Part shown: in pieces, positions 37,319-42,501 of the stretch | Position numbering within the stretch: position 1 is the stretch's first letter | Layout: each line of letters begins with the position of its first letter | Source of the DNA: Acidobacteriota bacterium | Lineage (GTDB): Bacteria; Acidobacteriota; Holophagae; Holophagales; Holophagaceae | DNA: 64,000 bases | Direction: 5' to 3' | NCBI GenBank assembly: GCA_021794095.1 | Contig: JAJYRN010000001.1 | Span: forward strand, 1 to 64,000 | Made by a program: the position numbers and the translations under genes | Notes under the pieces: generated by a model | The model's input: only the letters and a program-made list of their open reading frames with translations | Database searches by the model: none | What the model was told of the DNA's origin: nothing

Positions 37319-38467
37319 TCAAAACGCGGCGCTCACGGTGGCGGATCGCCCCTGATGGAAACGCGCATCCTGGGCGTCCCGCAGATCCCGGTTGAGGCGG
37401 TCCTGCCGGACCTCGACCCGGGCGAACGCGAGGCCGACCTTCTTTTCAAGTCCCAGGCTGAAGGAGCGGGCGATCAGCCCCGCGCCCGCCAGGCCGCTGA
37501 AGGCCGTGCCGCCTGCATCCAGCCCCAGGCTGGCACGGATGGCCGCATCCGCCGCCAGGCGGACGCCCAGGGTGTCGTCCAAGCGCTCGACCCTGGCCAT
37601 GGCACTGACGCCGTGCCCCAGGCCCCGTGCCAGGATCAGGCCATAGCCTCGCCACGTCTCGATCTGCGGCCCCGGCGCACCCAGAATGGCCGTGGCCAGA
37701 AAGGGTTCCCGACCGAGCGATGCCTCGCCCTGGAGAAGGGTCTGTCCCCGCCGCCACTGGCCCATGAGGCAGAGCCGCTCCCGGGGCCTCCCTTCGGCGC
37801 CCGTGTTCGCAGCCGCCCCCAGATCATCCTGCTCGGGCCCGCGGTACCCGTGGACGGAGAGGTACGAATCCGCCGACCCGCCGGGATTCCAGGTGAGACC
37901 CAGCCCCACGGTCTTCCCCTGGTTGTTGTCCTTCACCCGGTCCTCGCCGTTGAACACCCAGACGTCGCTGCTCCAGGCGGGACCGAAGGCATGGTGCCAG
38001 TTCACGCCCACCTGCCCGAAGGGATCCGCGAAGGTGAACAGCAACCCGCGGCTGGCGGTGACATCCGCCGCGCCATCCAGGAACTCCATGCCGATGAAGG
38101 TGATCATCCGGCCGAGGCGCAGGGTGTCGCGTGTTCCCGTCCACACCAGCATCGCCTCCACCGGGGCGATGCTGCCCGTGTCGCCCGTCGTGGCCTGCAC
38201 CACCTCGCCGGTATGGCCCGCCAGCAGCGTGGCCCGGGCCGACCACCCCTGGGGCAGCGCGGCATCCACGCCCAGCATCAGCCCGTCCAGAGCGAACTGG
38301 CTCTGGCCCGCTTCCAGGGGCTGGAACACGAGGGAGCCGTCCGCCGTGGTCCGGTCTTGGGCCACAGCCGAGGCCCAAAGAGAGCCGCGCCATGCAAGGA
38401 CTGGCGCGGCCGTCTGGGCCGAAGCGGCGAGGGTTCCCCCAAGAAGGATCGCCATCAGGATGCGCAT
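37319..38467 (-). CDS. Outer-membrane beta-barrel porin
   Basis: 382 aa with a signal peptide (MRILMAILLGGTLAASA), many alternating strands, 'FTFADPFGQVGVNWHH' and C-terminal Phe. Resembles OmpL/BBP2-type porins (about 14-16 strands). GGGAG 5 nt before the ATG. 32 nt after amt in the same direction: a porin co-transcribed with an ammonium transporter would let ammonium cross the outer membrane (inference). Confidence 0.75.
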   Translation of the reverse strand: MRILMAILLGGTLAASAQTAAPVLAWRGSLWASAVAQDRTTADGSLVFQPLEAGQSQFALDGLMLGVDAALPQGWSARATLLAGHTGEVVQATTGDTGSIAPVEAMLVWTGTRDTLRLGRMITFIGMEFLDGAADVTASRGLLFTFADPFGQVGVNWHHAFGPAWSSDVWVFNGEDRVKDNNQGKTVGLGLTWNPGGSADSYLSVHGYRGPEQDDLGAAANTGAEGRPRERLCLMGQWRRGQTLLQGEASLGREPFLATAILGAPGPQIETWRGYGLILARGLGHGVSAMARVERLDDTLGVRLAADAAIRASLGLDAGGTAFSGLAGAGLIARSFSLGLEKKVGLAFARVEVRQDRLNRDLRDAQDARFHQGRSATVSAAF

Positions 38468-38499: not shown

Positions 38500-39759
38500 T
38501 CAGAGCCCCTGGGGATAGGCCTCTTCGCCATGAAGCTCGGAGTCGAGTCCGCGCTCCTCGGCGGTGGGAGCCACGCGCACCGGCGTGATGCGGTCAATGA
38601 TCCAGAGCATCCCATAGGTGAAGCCGAAGGCCCACACGGAGGAGATGGCCACGGCGGCGCACTGCTTGCCGAAGAAGCCCACGTTCCCCAGCAGCAGACC
38701 GTCGGAGCCGGCGGGATTCCAGGCCTTCGAGGCGAAGATGCCCAGGAAGATCACGCCGATAAATCCGCCCACGCCGTGGACACCCCAGACGTCCAGCGCA
38801 TCGTCCCAGCCCAGCTTGTTCTTCAGGGCCACGGCGTAGTAGCAGATCACGCCGGCCAGGATGCCGATGAGGGCCGCGGTGCTGAGGGAGACGTAGCCAG
38901 CGGCCGGGGTGATGGTGGCCAGACCCGCCACCGCGCCCGTGAGCAGGCCCACGAACTTGGGCTGCTTGGCGTTCGTCCATTCCACCAGGAGCCAAGTGGC
39001 AGCGGCAAAAGAGGCGGCGATGTCGGTGTTCAGGAAGGCGGAGGCCGTCACGGAATCCACGCGGAGTTCGGACCCGGCGTTGAAGCCGTACCAGCCGAAC
39101 CAGAGGAGGCCGGTCCCCAGCGCGATGAGCGGGATGTTGTGGGGCACGTTCTCCACCACCTTGCGCCGCCCGACGTACAGGATCGAGGCCAGAGCCGCGA
39201 AACCCGCCGTATTGTGCACCACGATGCCGCCGGCGAAGTCCAGCACGCCCCAGCGGTTCAGGATGCCCTGGGGACTCCAGACCATGTGGACGAAGGGGAA
39301 GTACACGAAGATCAGCCAGCCCGTGAGGAACAGGAAGTAGGCCTTGAACGTGACGCGATTGGCAAAGGCGCCGGTGATCAGCGCCGGCGTGATGATGGCG
39401 AACATCATCTGGTAGGCGACGTGGACCATCAGGGGGATGCCCGCATCGTTGCCCCGGAACATGCTGTGCAGAGTGATGCCTCGGAGGAAGGCGTAGTGGG
39501 TGGGGTCGCCCACAATGCCGTGCCAGGTCGGGCCGAAACACATCGAATAGCCGAAGGCGAACCACAGGACCGTGGTCCAGCCCAGGGAGACGAAGCTCTG
39601 AGTCATGATGGTGAGTACGTTCTTCCGGCCCACCAGGCCGCCATAGAAGAAGGCCAGGCCCGGCGTCATGAGCATGACGAGGCTGGCACACAGCAGCATG
39701 AAGGCCGTGTTGCCCACGTTGATCGGCATCAGAGCCGGAGTGACCGCCACCGGATTCAT
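38500..39759 (-). CDS. amt: Ammonium transporter
   Basis: 419 aa, 11 membrane helices. Amt signatures: the twin His (DFAGGIVVHNTAG and DVWGVHGVGGFIG), the Phe gate region (AYQMMFAIITPALI) and WFGWYGFNAGS. Moves ammonium/ammonia into the cell. ATG 39759 has GAGGAGG upstream; a frame 20 codons longer is unlikely. No glnK neighbour is visible. The 5' region holds a sigma-54-like -24/-12 site, as expected for nitrogen control. Confidence 0.95.
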   Translation of the reverse strand: MNPVAVTPALMPINVGNTAFMLLCASLVMLMTPGLAFFYGGLVGRKNVLTIMTQSFVSLGWTTVLWFAFGYSMCFGPTWHGIVGDPTHYAFLRGITLHSMFRGNDAGIPLMVHVAYQMMFAIITPALITGAFANRVTFKAYFLFLTGWLIFVYFPFVHMVWSPQGILNRWGVLDFAGGIVVHNTAGFAALASILYVGRRKVVENVPHNIPLIALGTGLLWFGWYGFNAGSELRVDSVTASAFLNTDIAASFAAATWLLVEWTNAKQPKFVGLLTGAVAGLATITPAAGYVSLSTAALIGILAGVICYYAVALKNKLGWDDALDVWGVHGVGGFIGVIFLGIFASKAWNPAGSDGLLLGNVGFFGKQCAAVAISSVWAFGFTYGMLWIIDRITPVRVAPTAEERGLDSELHGEEAYPQGL

Positions 39760-39803
39760 AAAGACAACCTCCTCATCCTGAAATTCGGACGCGGGCAGTA
39801 TGG

Positions 39804-39818: not shown

Positions 39819-39886
39819 CGCCGGTTCGAGGGGGCCCTTCTTTTTACGCGCTTTTTATGTCCCCCTCCTGGGTACCCTGAACCCCC

Positions 39887-41794
39887 ATGGACGCTCCCGC
39901 CCGGCCCATCCTCGTGGCCCTCGGTTCAGAGGTCCGCGCCCTCCGCCTGATCCAGGCGGCCAGCAGGCTCGCCCGCGAACGGAATGCGCCCTGGCTGGCC
40001 GTGCATGTGGAGGCCGCCTCCGGCGCGATCCCGGATGACCTGGAACAGGTGCAGGTCTGGCTGCAGGAGGCCCAGCGCCTGGGCGCGGGAGTCCGGACGG
40101 TTCCCGCGCCGACCCTGGCCCAGGGACTGGCGGACCTGACGCGCGCCACCCATGCCCAGGCCCTGGTCCTGGGCCGGTCGCGGGACCGCTGGCCCTGGGC
40201 GCGTCTGGGGCATTCCACTGCCGACGAACTCCAGCGGCGGGGCCTGGACGCCGATCTGGTGGTGCTGGACGATCCTCCGGAAGTGGCGGGTGCGGAGCGG
40301 CCCGGGACGCCCTTCGGTGCCACCCTCGGCACCCTGCTGGTCCTGGCCGCCTGCACGGGGCTGGCTTGGCTGGTGCCGCGGGAAGGGAACCTATCGCTGG
40401 TGCTGCCCGTCTACCTTCTCGGCGTGGCCTTCATCGCCCACCGCTGGGGCCAGGGCCTGGGGGTGCTGGCCTCCACCCTGAGCGCCCTGCTCTACGACTT
40501 CCTGCTGGAGACCCCCCGCTTCCGGCATGCCGAAGAGCTCTGGCCCAACCTGCTCTTCTTCCTGGCCATGCTGCTGTCAGCGCAGCTCGTCATGGGCCTG
40601 CTGCGACGGCTGCGGCTCCAGGCCCGCGACGTCCAGCGCCGCGAATTCCACACCGCCTCGCTCTACCTGCTGGGCCGCGCCCTGGCCCGGAGCCGGACGC
40701 CGGAGGAGGTCGCCGCCGCCGCCGGGGAACACATCGGGCGGATTTTCAAGGCCAAGGCCTGGCTCCTGTTCCCCCTGGAGGACACCTGGCATGCGCTGCC
40801 CACACCGCTGGAGGATCCATCTCTGCCGCCACCCTCGGAACTGGCACCCAGCCTGGATCTGGGAGGCCGCCAGGGCGATCCCCTCGAACCCCTGCCACTG
40901 GGCGGGGCCTTCTACCTCTCCCTCACCGGCACCGACCGGAGCGAGGGCGTGCTGCGGATCCTCCCCCGCGAGGCCAAGGGACTGCCGCCCCGCACCTGGG
41001 AACTCCTCCAGGCCTTCGCCGCGCAGATCGCCCTCGCGCTGGAACGGCTCCGCTGGCTGGAGGAGGCCCGCCGCGCCCAGGTGGAACGGGAGACAGAACG
41101 CATGCGCAGCACCCTCCTCGGTGCCATCGGGCATGATCTCCGCACGCCGCTGGCGGCCATCCACGGCGCTGCGGGTACGCTGCTCCTGCCCGGCGACCTG
41201 GATGATTCGGCGCGCCGCGATCTGCTGGCCATGATCCAGGACGAGAGCGAGCGGCTGGCCCACCTGCTGGGGAACATCCTAGATTTGACCCGGCTGGAAA
41301 GCGGCGTCCTTCGGGTCCAGAAAGAATGGCAGCCCCTGGAGGAGGTGGTGGGCGCGGCCCTCGGCCACCTGGAACGCCGGGAGGGCCCCGTGTCCGTCCG
41401 GGTGGACCTCCCTTCCGACCTGCCCCTCGTTCCCCTGGATGCAGCCCTCATGGAGCAGGTACTCATCAACCTGCTCACCAATGCCCGGCGACATGCCCCC
41501 GGCCAGGCGACGGAACTCCGGGCCTGGGGCGAGCCCGGCGGCCTGGCGCTGGAAGTCGCGGATCGCGGCCCCGGGGTTCCAGAAGCCTTCCGGGAGCGGA
41601 TGTTCGATCCCTTCGTCCGCCTGCCCGGAGCAGGCGAAGGCGGGGTGGGGCTCGGCCTGGCCATCTGCCGCGCCATCATCCAGGCCCACGGCGGCACCAT
41701 CACCGCCGAGGCCCGGCCCGGCGGAGGCACGGCGTTCCGCCTCCGCCTGCCCCTGCCCGGAGAACCTCCGGCCCTGCCGGAAGACGCGCCATGA
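39887..41794 (+). CDS. KdpD-like sensor histidine kinase lacking the N-terminal KdpD domain
   Basis: 635 aa. Order: universal-stress-like domain (about 6-130), four-helix DUF4118 membrane unit (about 145-245, LPVYLLGVAFIAHRWGQGLG), GAF-like region (about 265-390), dimerisation domain with phospho-His416 (AIGHDLRTPLAAIHG) and HATPase (NLLTNARRHAP, ADRGPGVP, GVGLGLAICRAII). Canonical KdpD carries about 230 more residues with a P-loop domain in front; that is missing here, as are the kdpFABC pump genes. Stop and next start overlap by ATGA. Confidence 0.88.
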   Translation: MDAPARPILVALGSEVRALRLIQAASRLARERNAPWLAVHVEAASGAIPDDLEQVQVWLQEAQRLGAGVRTVPAPTLAQGLADLTRATHAQALVLGRSRDRWPWARLGHSTADELQRRGLDADLVVLDDPPEVAGAERPGTPFGATLGTLLVLAACTGLAWLVPREGNLSLVLPVYLLGVAFIAHRWGQGLGVLASTLSALLYDFLLETPRFRHAEELWPNLLFFLAMLLSAQLVMGLLRRLRLQARDVQRREFHTASLYLLGRALARSRTPEEVAAAAGEHIGRIFKAKAWLLFPLEDTWHALPTPLEDPSLPPPSELAPSLDLGGRQGDPLEPLPLGGAFYLSLTGTDRSEGVLRILPREAKGLPPRTWELLQAFAAQIALALERLRWLEEARRAQVERETERMRSTLLGAIGHDLRTPLAAIHGAAGTLLLPGDLDDSARRDLLAMIQDESERLAHLLGNILDLTRLESGVLRVQKEWQPLEEVVGAALGHLERREGPVSVRVDLPSDLPLVPLDAALMEQVLINLLTNARRHAPGQATELRAWGEPGGLALEVADRGPGVPEAFRERMFDPFVRLPGAGEGGVGLGLAICRAIIQAHGGTITAEARPGGGTAFRLRLPLPGEPPALPEDAP

Positions 41795-42501
41795 CCAGCG
41801 GAGCGGGCGGGCCCCGCATTCTCGTGGTGGAAGACGAACCGGCGCTGCGTCGCTTTCTGGTGCCCACCCTGGCCGGCCAGGGCTACCAGGTGCTCACGGC
41901 CGCGACCGCCGCCGAGGGCCTGGCCCTGGCGCGCAGCCACAACCCCGACCTGGTGCTGCTGGACCTGGGCCTGCCCGATCAGGACGGCATGGAAGTGCTG
42001 CGCCAGCTCCGCCTCTGGAGCGCCCGCCCCATCGTGATCCTCAGCGCCCGAAACCAGGAGCGGGACAAGGTCCGTGCCCTGGATGGGGGCGCCGACGACT
42101 ACTTGGCCAAACCCTTCGGCGCGGCCGAACTGCTGGCCCGGCTGCGGGTGGCCCTGCGCCGCACAATCCAGACAGAGGCCGGGGAGACGGTGGTGGCCGG
42201 AGGCGGCCTGCGGGTGGATCTCGCGCGCCGGGAGGTGAGCCTGGAGGGCCGTCCCGTCCACCTCACCACCCTGGAGTACCGCCTGCTGGAGGCCCTCGTC
42301 CGCCGGAACGGGCGGGTGGCCACCCACGCCCAGCTGCTGGCCGACGTCTGGGGCCCCGGTGGCGCCGGGAACACCCACTACCTCCGCATCTACATGGCCA
42401 TGCTGCGCCGGAAGCTGGAAGCCGATCCCACCCGGCCCCGCACCTTCATCACCGAGCCCAACGTGGGCTATCGCCTGGATCTGGACGCGTCCGAAGGATG
42501 A
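41791..42501 (+). CDS. KdpE-like OmpR-family response regulator
   Basis: 236 aa. Receiver with phospho-acceptor Asp58 (LVLLDLGLP) and Lys107 (LAKPFG); C-terminal winged helix (about 135-230) with TTLEYRLLEALVRRNG. Overlaps the kinase stop by 4 nt, so they form a pair. Targets unknown: no kdp operon in the window, and amt is the nearest candidate. Confidence 0.92.
   Translation: MTSGAGGPRILVVEDEPALRRFLVPTLAGQGYQVLTAATAAEGLALARSHNPDLVLLDLGLPDQDGMEVLRQLRLWSARPIVILSARNQERDKVRALDGGADDYLAKPFGAAELLARLRVALRRTIQTEAGETVVAGGGLRVDLARREVSLEGRPVHLTTLEYRLLEALVRRNGRVATHAQLLADVWGPGGAGNTHYLRIYMAMLRRKLEADPTRPRTFITEPNVGYRLDLDASEG

Follow-up and report, generated by a model that had tools for sequence, protein, structure and literature searches.

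The locus described here lies in a window of 64,000 nucleotides, the whole stretch of DNA that was analyzed, from an Acidobacteriota bacterium of the Holophagaceae (GCA_021794095.1, contig JAJYRN010000001.1, positions 1–64,000, forward strand). The genome (G000; 2.99 Mb, 28 contigs, 99.25% complete) has Geothrix and other Holophagaceae as its nearest named relatives. An ammonium transporter gene, amt (38500..39759, minus strand), was assigned by Pfam, NCBIfam and motifs and is the sole amt match in the genome. Its product carries VHMVW, DFAGG, GVHGVGG and a C-terminal HGEEAY, which we take to be the AmtB-like twin-His motifs and the C-terminal PII-contact motif. Located 3' of amt is a BBP2 (OmpL-like) porin gene (37319..38467, minus strand; Pfam), an optional part of the block found in some relatives only. 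Divergent from this pair run a gene for a short KdpD-family sensor histidine kinase (39887..41794, plus strand) and a gene for a KdpE-like response regulator of the OmpR/PhoB type (41791..42501, plus strand), for which we use the names kdpDs and kdpEs to denote the short, amt-linked pair. A sequence-only reading of the window had already placed a KdpE-like partner next to the kinase, with both genes divergent from an amt/porin pair, and the regulator gene, amt and the BBP2 porin gene were all confirmed. Comparisons were drawn from 77 genomes of the same family (family survey) and 396 genomes of the phylum (phylum survey).

Domain architecture and conservation of KdpDs and KdpEs

KdpDs (635 aa) gave Pfam matches to DUF4118, GAF_3, HisKA and HATPase_c, and its layout of a Usp-like part, four transmembrane helices (DUF4118), GAF, HisKA and HATPase_c follows the order of canonical KdpD. 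No Pfam match to PF02702, the P-loop KdpD domain, was obtained in the protein, and positions 253–887 of the 895 in the NCBIfam KdpD model align to residues 8–629; since this alignment begins at model position 253, the missing part is exactly the N-terminal domain. A longer N-terminus is excluded by an in-frame TGA three codons 5' of the ATG. The sequence-only reading, according to which the kinase lacks the P-loop domain and begins at a Usp-like domain, thus agrees with Pfam, NCBIfam and the upstream stop codon. The score of 311 bits lies below the NCBIfam KdpD cut-off of 1123. As the Usp domain itself drew no Pfam call, its assignment as Usp-like relies on the alignment to the KdpD model and on Usp columns common to canonical KdpD, with a weak match to the solved Usp domain of Staphylococcus aureus KdpD (7ji4, E = 0.003). 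The AlphaFold model of KdpDs is poor (mean pLDDT 64, 33–54 in the Usp part). KdpEs consists of a receiver and a winged helix, matches the PDB KdpE structures 4kny and 4kfc, and scores 271 bits against an NCBIfam KdpE cut-off of 325, which it does not reach. Equivalents of the Escherichia coli KdpE contact residues R193, R200 and T215 are kept in all 19 KdpEs rows (numbering mapped by hand).

For a comparison by region, we took the positions shared by at least 90% of 19 canonical KdpD rows and counted them as kept where at least 90% of the KdpDs rows retained them. By this measure KdpDs keeps 50 of 66 canonical positions in the kinase core, where H416, N528, N532 and D559 are invariant (19/19 KdpDs), 5 of 16 in GAF, 4 of 14 in the Usp-like part, which is poorly conserved from one KdpDs subgroup to another, and 1 of 21 in the membrane part. 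Two tryptophans of the latter set the groups apart: W187 is present in 19/19 KdpDs versus 1/19 canonical KdpD rows, and W219 in 19/19 versus 0/19. These counts indicate that the membrane sensor of KdpDs is rewritten while the kinase core is retained. Trees were built for 38 kinases and for 37 regulators (quick method, SH-aLRT support only). A branch with a support of 100 divides the 19 KdpDs, and likewise their regulators, from the canonical KdpD of the same family.

Read from bit scores (at least 501 bits), 26 of the 47 genomes in the window's genus contain KdpDs, as do eight genomes from three other genera. A contig-cut KdpDs in G059 (60% identity) was left out of these 34; it and its KdpEs lie on a different contig from the amt found there, and that amt lacks the repeat described below. 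All KdpDs genomes belong to one family, so that kinship inflates the counts, and some records are duplicates (e.g. L016/L151, L007/L152 and L017/L154), which means that fewer than 34 independent species underlie the 34 target loci. Near-full-length matches in a frame of KdpDs's own length were confined to the window's family among the 396 phylum genomes, and outside the family the matches at E ≤ 1e-60 included no short relative with full coverage; more diverged short KdpDs could escape this limit. Where other families gave full-coverage matches, the frames were at least about 900 aa long, and frames of 500–590 aa match only from about residue 138 onward. Other phyla were covered by one search, from which L027–L031 were rejected as short KdpDs, their frames of 874–924 aa marking them as canonical KdpD, and L032–L034, short or cut by contig ends, were left unused.

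A canonical Kdp system on another contig

A complete kdpFABC-kdpD-kdpE set is located on contig C26 of the window genome, comprising KdpA, KdpB, KdpC, an 896-aa KdpD with PF02702, KdpE, and the very short KdpF, recognized only by eye and alignment. The statement of the sequence-only reading that no kdpFABC is present therefore holds locally and fails for the genome as a whole. That reading had also named a distinct kdp operon elsewhere, with its N-terminal sensor protein, as evidence against itself, and the genome search finds such an operon, with a full KdpD, on C26. We interpret this result differently: kdpFABC adjoins the C26 KdpD and is not linked to KdpDs, and the existence of a separate, full kdp operon means that KdpDs is not the cell's degenerate Kdp system, which strengthens the case for another role. 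The C26 KdpD also holds the only PF02702 match in the genome, which leaves KdpDs without a free-standing N-terminal domain as a complement. A third DUF4118 protein (G000:C24:97184-97480; L058 5014-6762) was considered as a KdpD and rejected, as it reads by eye like a PAS/GGDEF signaling protein.

Upstream of kdpF, six of 11 canonical kdpFABC regions (L156, L157, L162, L163, L166 and L168) carry CTAAC-N6-TTAAC, a repeat with an 11-bp period that is possibly the canonical KdpE site of the window's genus. As it occurs in six of the 11 regions and is absent from the window genome's own kdp promoter, no canonical KdpE site is claimed.

Linkage to amt and relation to PII

The amt–KdpD neighborhood, whose conservation the sequence-only reading had proposed to follow and whose absence from relatives it would have taken as a refutation, is stable in relatives: amt adjoins and diverges from kdpDs in 20 of 20 named family relatives, and it lies within 2.5 kb of KdpDs in 31 of the 34 copies from the 77 family genomes. 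In the three unlinked cases (G062, G068 and G069), kdpDs is situated about 65–165 nt from a contig end. In G071, amt, kdpDs and kdpEs run in the same direction behind a second, divergent amt. Carriers in culture include Geothrix rubra Red803, G. oryzisoli SG189 and G. limicola Red804 (loci L009, L012 and L024). Among KdpDs-free congeners, 16 were searched for bioB, which was found in 15, while five others stood outside this test; in all 15 testable genomes pdh directly adjoins bioB, without amt, kdpDs or kdpEs between them. Judged from this gene order, the amt-kdpDs-kdpEs block is gained or lost as a unit. KdpDs-free congeners keep other amt types, the four compared (two in G004 and one each in G011 and G021) being 30–42% identical to the window amt. 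In G057 (L243 3690-6705), a close homologue of amt (91%) has neither KdpDs nor the repeat and lies behind another gene pair, which encodes a PAS histidine kinase and a receiver-only response regulator.

After exclusion of matches shorter than 1000 nt (16 of 128), the family holds 112 full-length amt genes. PII lies within 1 kb of 73 of them and KdpDs within 2.5 kb of 29; no amt gene has both neighbors and 10 have neither. PII (PF00543) gave no match in the window genome, while control genomes were positive in 13 of 14 cases; the single amt of this genome is nevertheless AmtB-like with a PII-type C-terminal motif. Eight KdpDs genomes are without a PII match, including G035 (one contig, 100% completeness), and PII was likewise not found in G023, G025 and G031. 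KdpDs/KdpEs is the only regulator found adjoining amt in the window species, and there it seems to stand in for the customary PII regulator. Many KdpDs genomes keep PII beside their other amt genes, which makes KdpDs an addition in those genomes and not a replacement.

A conserved direct repeat between amt and kdpDs

The 130-bp spacer between the divergent genes contains the KdpE-type direct repeat TTTTTAC-N4-TTTTTAT (39841..39858, plus strand). The E. coli KdpE site is made up of two direct repeats of 6 bp, TTTATA and TTTACA, separated by 5 bp and contacted by R193, R200 and T215 (PMC3264566). The window repeat shares this TTTATA-N5-TTTACA layout and, read in the same register, comprises the half-sites 39843–39848 (TTTACG) and 39854–39859 (TTTATG) with a 5-bp spacer. 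With up to two mismatches, TTTTTAY-N4-TTTTTAY matches only once in the 64-kb window, where 0.01 matches are expected, and the core TTTTTA-N5-TTTTTA is conserved in 19 aligned rows (the window and 18 relatives). The loci L021 and L022 were omitted from this promoter alignment on account of inserts of roughly 270–380 bp (L021 5687-6001, L022 5586-6001), which have inverted TGCCTAAC/GTTAGGCA-like ends and leave the amt side intact.

Likely −10 elements flank the repeat on both sides. For amt this would be CATACT (39797..39802, minus strand), seen as a conserved AGTATG on the plus strand of the aligned rows, and for kdpDs TACCCT (39873..39878, plus strand), with TACYCT in most aligned rows. As the kdpDs start codon lies 8 nt past its likely −10 element, the kdpDs mRNA is probably leaderless. 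From the coordinates, the repeat would be located about 50–68 bp upstream of the inferred amt transcription start.

A strict form of the repeat pattern matched in 22 of the 77 family genomes, at the amt–kdpDs spacer in 21 of them and elsewhere in one; the match in G070, away from KdpDs, was set aside. The five KdpDs congeners that the strict pattern missed likewise have the repeat in their spacers. With the pattern reversed as a control, six matches were obtained in the 77 genomes, and lone matches accordingly mean little without conservation; a second exact match to the loose pattern in the window genome (C11:86518), in a very AT-rich stretch, was taken as chance. The relaxed repeat occurs in 34 of 34 target loci, where it is confined to amt–kdpDs or amt–amt spacers, and has no match in 302,369 nt of control DNA, comprising 17 PII-linked amt loci, six amt loci without both partners, 18 kdp loci and 15 empty sites. 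It is thus found at none of the 18 kdp loci and at none of the six amt genes lacking both partners, five of which are close homologues of the window amt (76–91% identity).

The position of the repeat within longer spacers was also compared. In four genomes of another genus it is situated about 109–149 nt from amt and 83–796 nt from kdpDs (measured by hand), and in L021 and L022 the insert parts it from kdpDs only. In these longer spacers, the repeat follows amt and not kdpDs. Where two divergent amt genes occur (G071, G068 and G069), several half-sites lie between them, many 11–12 bp apart, in arrays at L149 5916-5956, L246 1825-1900 and L247 1955-2037, respectively. Overall, the conserved KdpE-type repeat, as a candidate site, supports binding of KdpEs upstream of amt.

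Discussion

We propose that KdpDs/KdpEs is a system derived from KdpD/KdpE that controls amt, and probably itself, through one shared site, with scarcity of NH4+ as the most likely signal, and put the probability of this reading as a whole at roughly 0.55. The part of it that concerns the target is considerably firmer: given an intact kinase and regulator, a likely site at an activator-like distance, and a block and site that are co-inherited with amt, control of amt by KdpEs is very likely. That KdpDs senses ammonium carries less weight and is plausible. According to our proposal, KdpDs would reside in the membrane with its Usp-like domain in the cytoplasm, ahead of the four helices. A cation signal, most likely a shortage of NH4+ (which closely resembles K+) outside or inside the cell, would lead KdpDs to phosphorylate KdpEs, and KdpEs-P would then bind the direct repeat upstream of the amt start, on the side expected for an activator. 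The −35 region of kdpDs overlaps with this repeat as well, and self-control is probable. The KdpFABC pump of E. coli is inhibited by the N-terminal domain of KdpD, a serine kinase (PMC11018627), and the absence of this domain fits a kinase no longer serving Kdp: no inhibition of KdpFABC would be expected from KdpDs, and the transcriptional arm alone would be left. Kdp of Mycobacterium smegmatis is induced by a high NH4+ salt (PMC5401905); KdpD-type systems are thus able to respond to NH4+, although the logic there is opposite to that proposed here.

Two alternatives retain local control of amt and differ in the input. The signal might be K+ or osmotic state, as K+ uptake needs glutamate as counter-ion and would call for more ammonium. 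Descent from a K+ sensor lineage suits this view, as does a GAF domain that is still recognizable, one K+ site of E. coli KdpD having been placed in GAF (PMC11018627). We nevertheless regard it as rather unlikely, since canonical positions are kept at only 1/21 in the membrane part and 5/16 in GAF, a full K+-sensing Kdp system already exists in the genome, and the repeat is missing from the kdp loci. Alternatively, KdpDs might read internal nitrogen status or the transporter itself, via the Usp-like and GAF parts or by contact with Amt, and not a membrane-bound ion. The KdpD Usp domain binds c-di-AMP or UspC in other species (PMC4686210, PMC2714519), and inheritance strictly together with one amt type would be in keeping with a physical partnership, but the low conservation of the Usp-like part between KdpDs subgroups speaks against such an input, which we consider quite unlikely.

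The remaining alternatives dispense with amt as a target. If amt and kdpDs were neighbors only, with KdpDs/KdpEs regulating itself or distant genes, the linkage would be inherited gene order, and indeed gene order within the genus is conserved across the wider block (pdh, bioB, valS) as well. This explanation is made very improbable by the gain or loss of the block as a unit, by an amt link that holds in other genera with other flanks and despite the reversed amt orientation in G071, by the concentration of strict matches at the amt–kdpDs spacer, and by a repeat that tracks amt when the spacer grows. A degenerate or accessory Kdp copy cross-talking with kdpFABC could be imagined because the response regulators come from the same family; we give it hardly any credence in view of the invariant H416, N528, N532 and D559, the clade separate from the family's own KdpD, and the absence of the repeat from every kdp locus. 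KdpDs/KdpEs is not a Kdp remnant.

Returning to control of amt in response to NH4+ scarcity, a bolder version can be considered, in which a KdpD branch has turned into an ammonium receptor, its membrane part rebuilt, with W187 and W219 invariant, and has taken over control of amt from PII, completely so where PII is absent. We offer this version tentatively, with the odds somewhat against it. If true, NH4+ would be sensed by a member of the KdpD family, and Amt could be operated in the absence of PII. External ammonium sensing is known for few bacterial systems, and in bacteria with Amt and without PII the usual gate on Amt is absent. The block, carried by a bacterium of soil and sediment, represents a small, testable case in which a K+ sensor lineage has kept its output and rewritten its sensor and in which an ammonium channel has apparently replaced a K+ pump as the target, and related species with and without the block form a natural comparison set.

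No published KdpD/KdpE–amt system was found among titles and abstract openings on the topics Geothrix, KdpD, KdpE, amtB and DUF4118, a scope that left subscription literature mostly outside. As a local partner of an ammonium transporter, KdpDs/KdpEs resembles the AmtB–GlnK (PII) pair; there, a trimeric PII exerts a post-translational block (PMC10433425), whereas KdpDs-linked full-length amt genes are without adjoining PII in 29 of 29 cases and no PII was detected in the window genome. GrtK/GrtR of Burkholderia glumae, compared by description only, is likewise a two-component system for external ammonia without an Amt sensor domain, but serves ammonia neutralization via oxalate, and an amt link is not mentioned in its abstract (PMC12918730). 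In the Amt–histidine kinase fusion KsAmt5, a histidine kinase is also tied to Amt for ammonium signaling (PMC5764959, PMC10433425); the Amt domain acts as the sensor there, in contrast to the separate proteins and KdpD-type sensor found here. KdpD variants without the P-loop domain are already known as parts of split Kdp systems, surveyed as a KdpD/Usp chain and a kinase chain with TM, GAF and DHpCA (PMC11018627). KdpDs shares with them a KdpD-type histidine kinase free of the P-loop domain; according to that survey the commonest split kinase is without Usp, which KdpDs keeps, and KdpDs has no partner P-loop chain in a genome that also holds a full KdpD. With KdpD/KdpE of E. coli and other bacteria, finally, the pair has in common the domain order from Usp onward, the kinase core residues, the regulator family and a direct-repeat site of 6-bp half-sites with a 5-bp spacer, whereas it differs in lacking the N-terminal serine kinase, in its linkage to amt and not to kdpFABC, in its rewritten membrane sensor and in forming a clade of its own.
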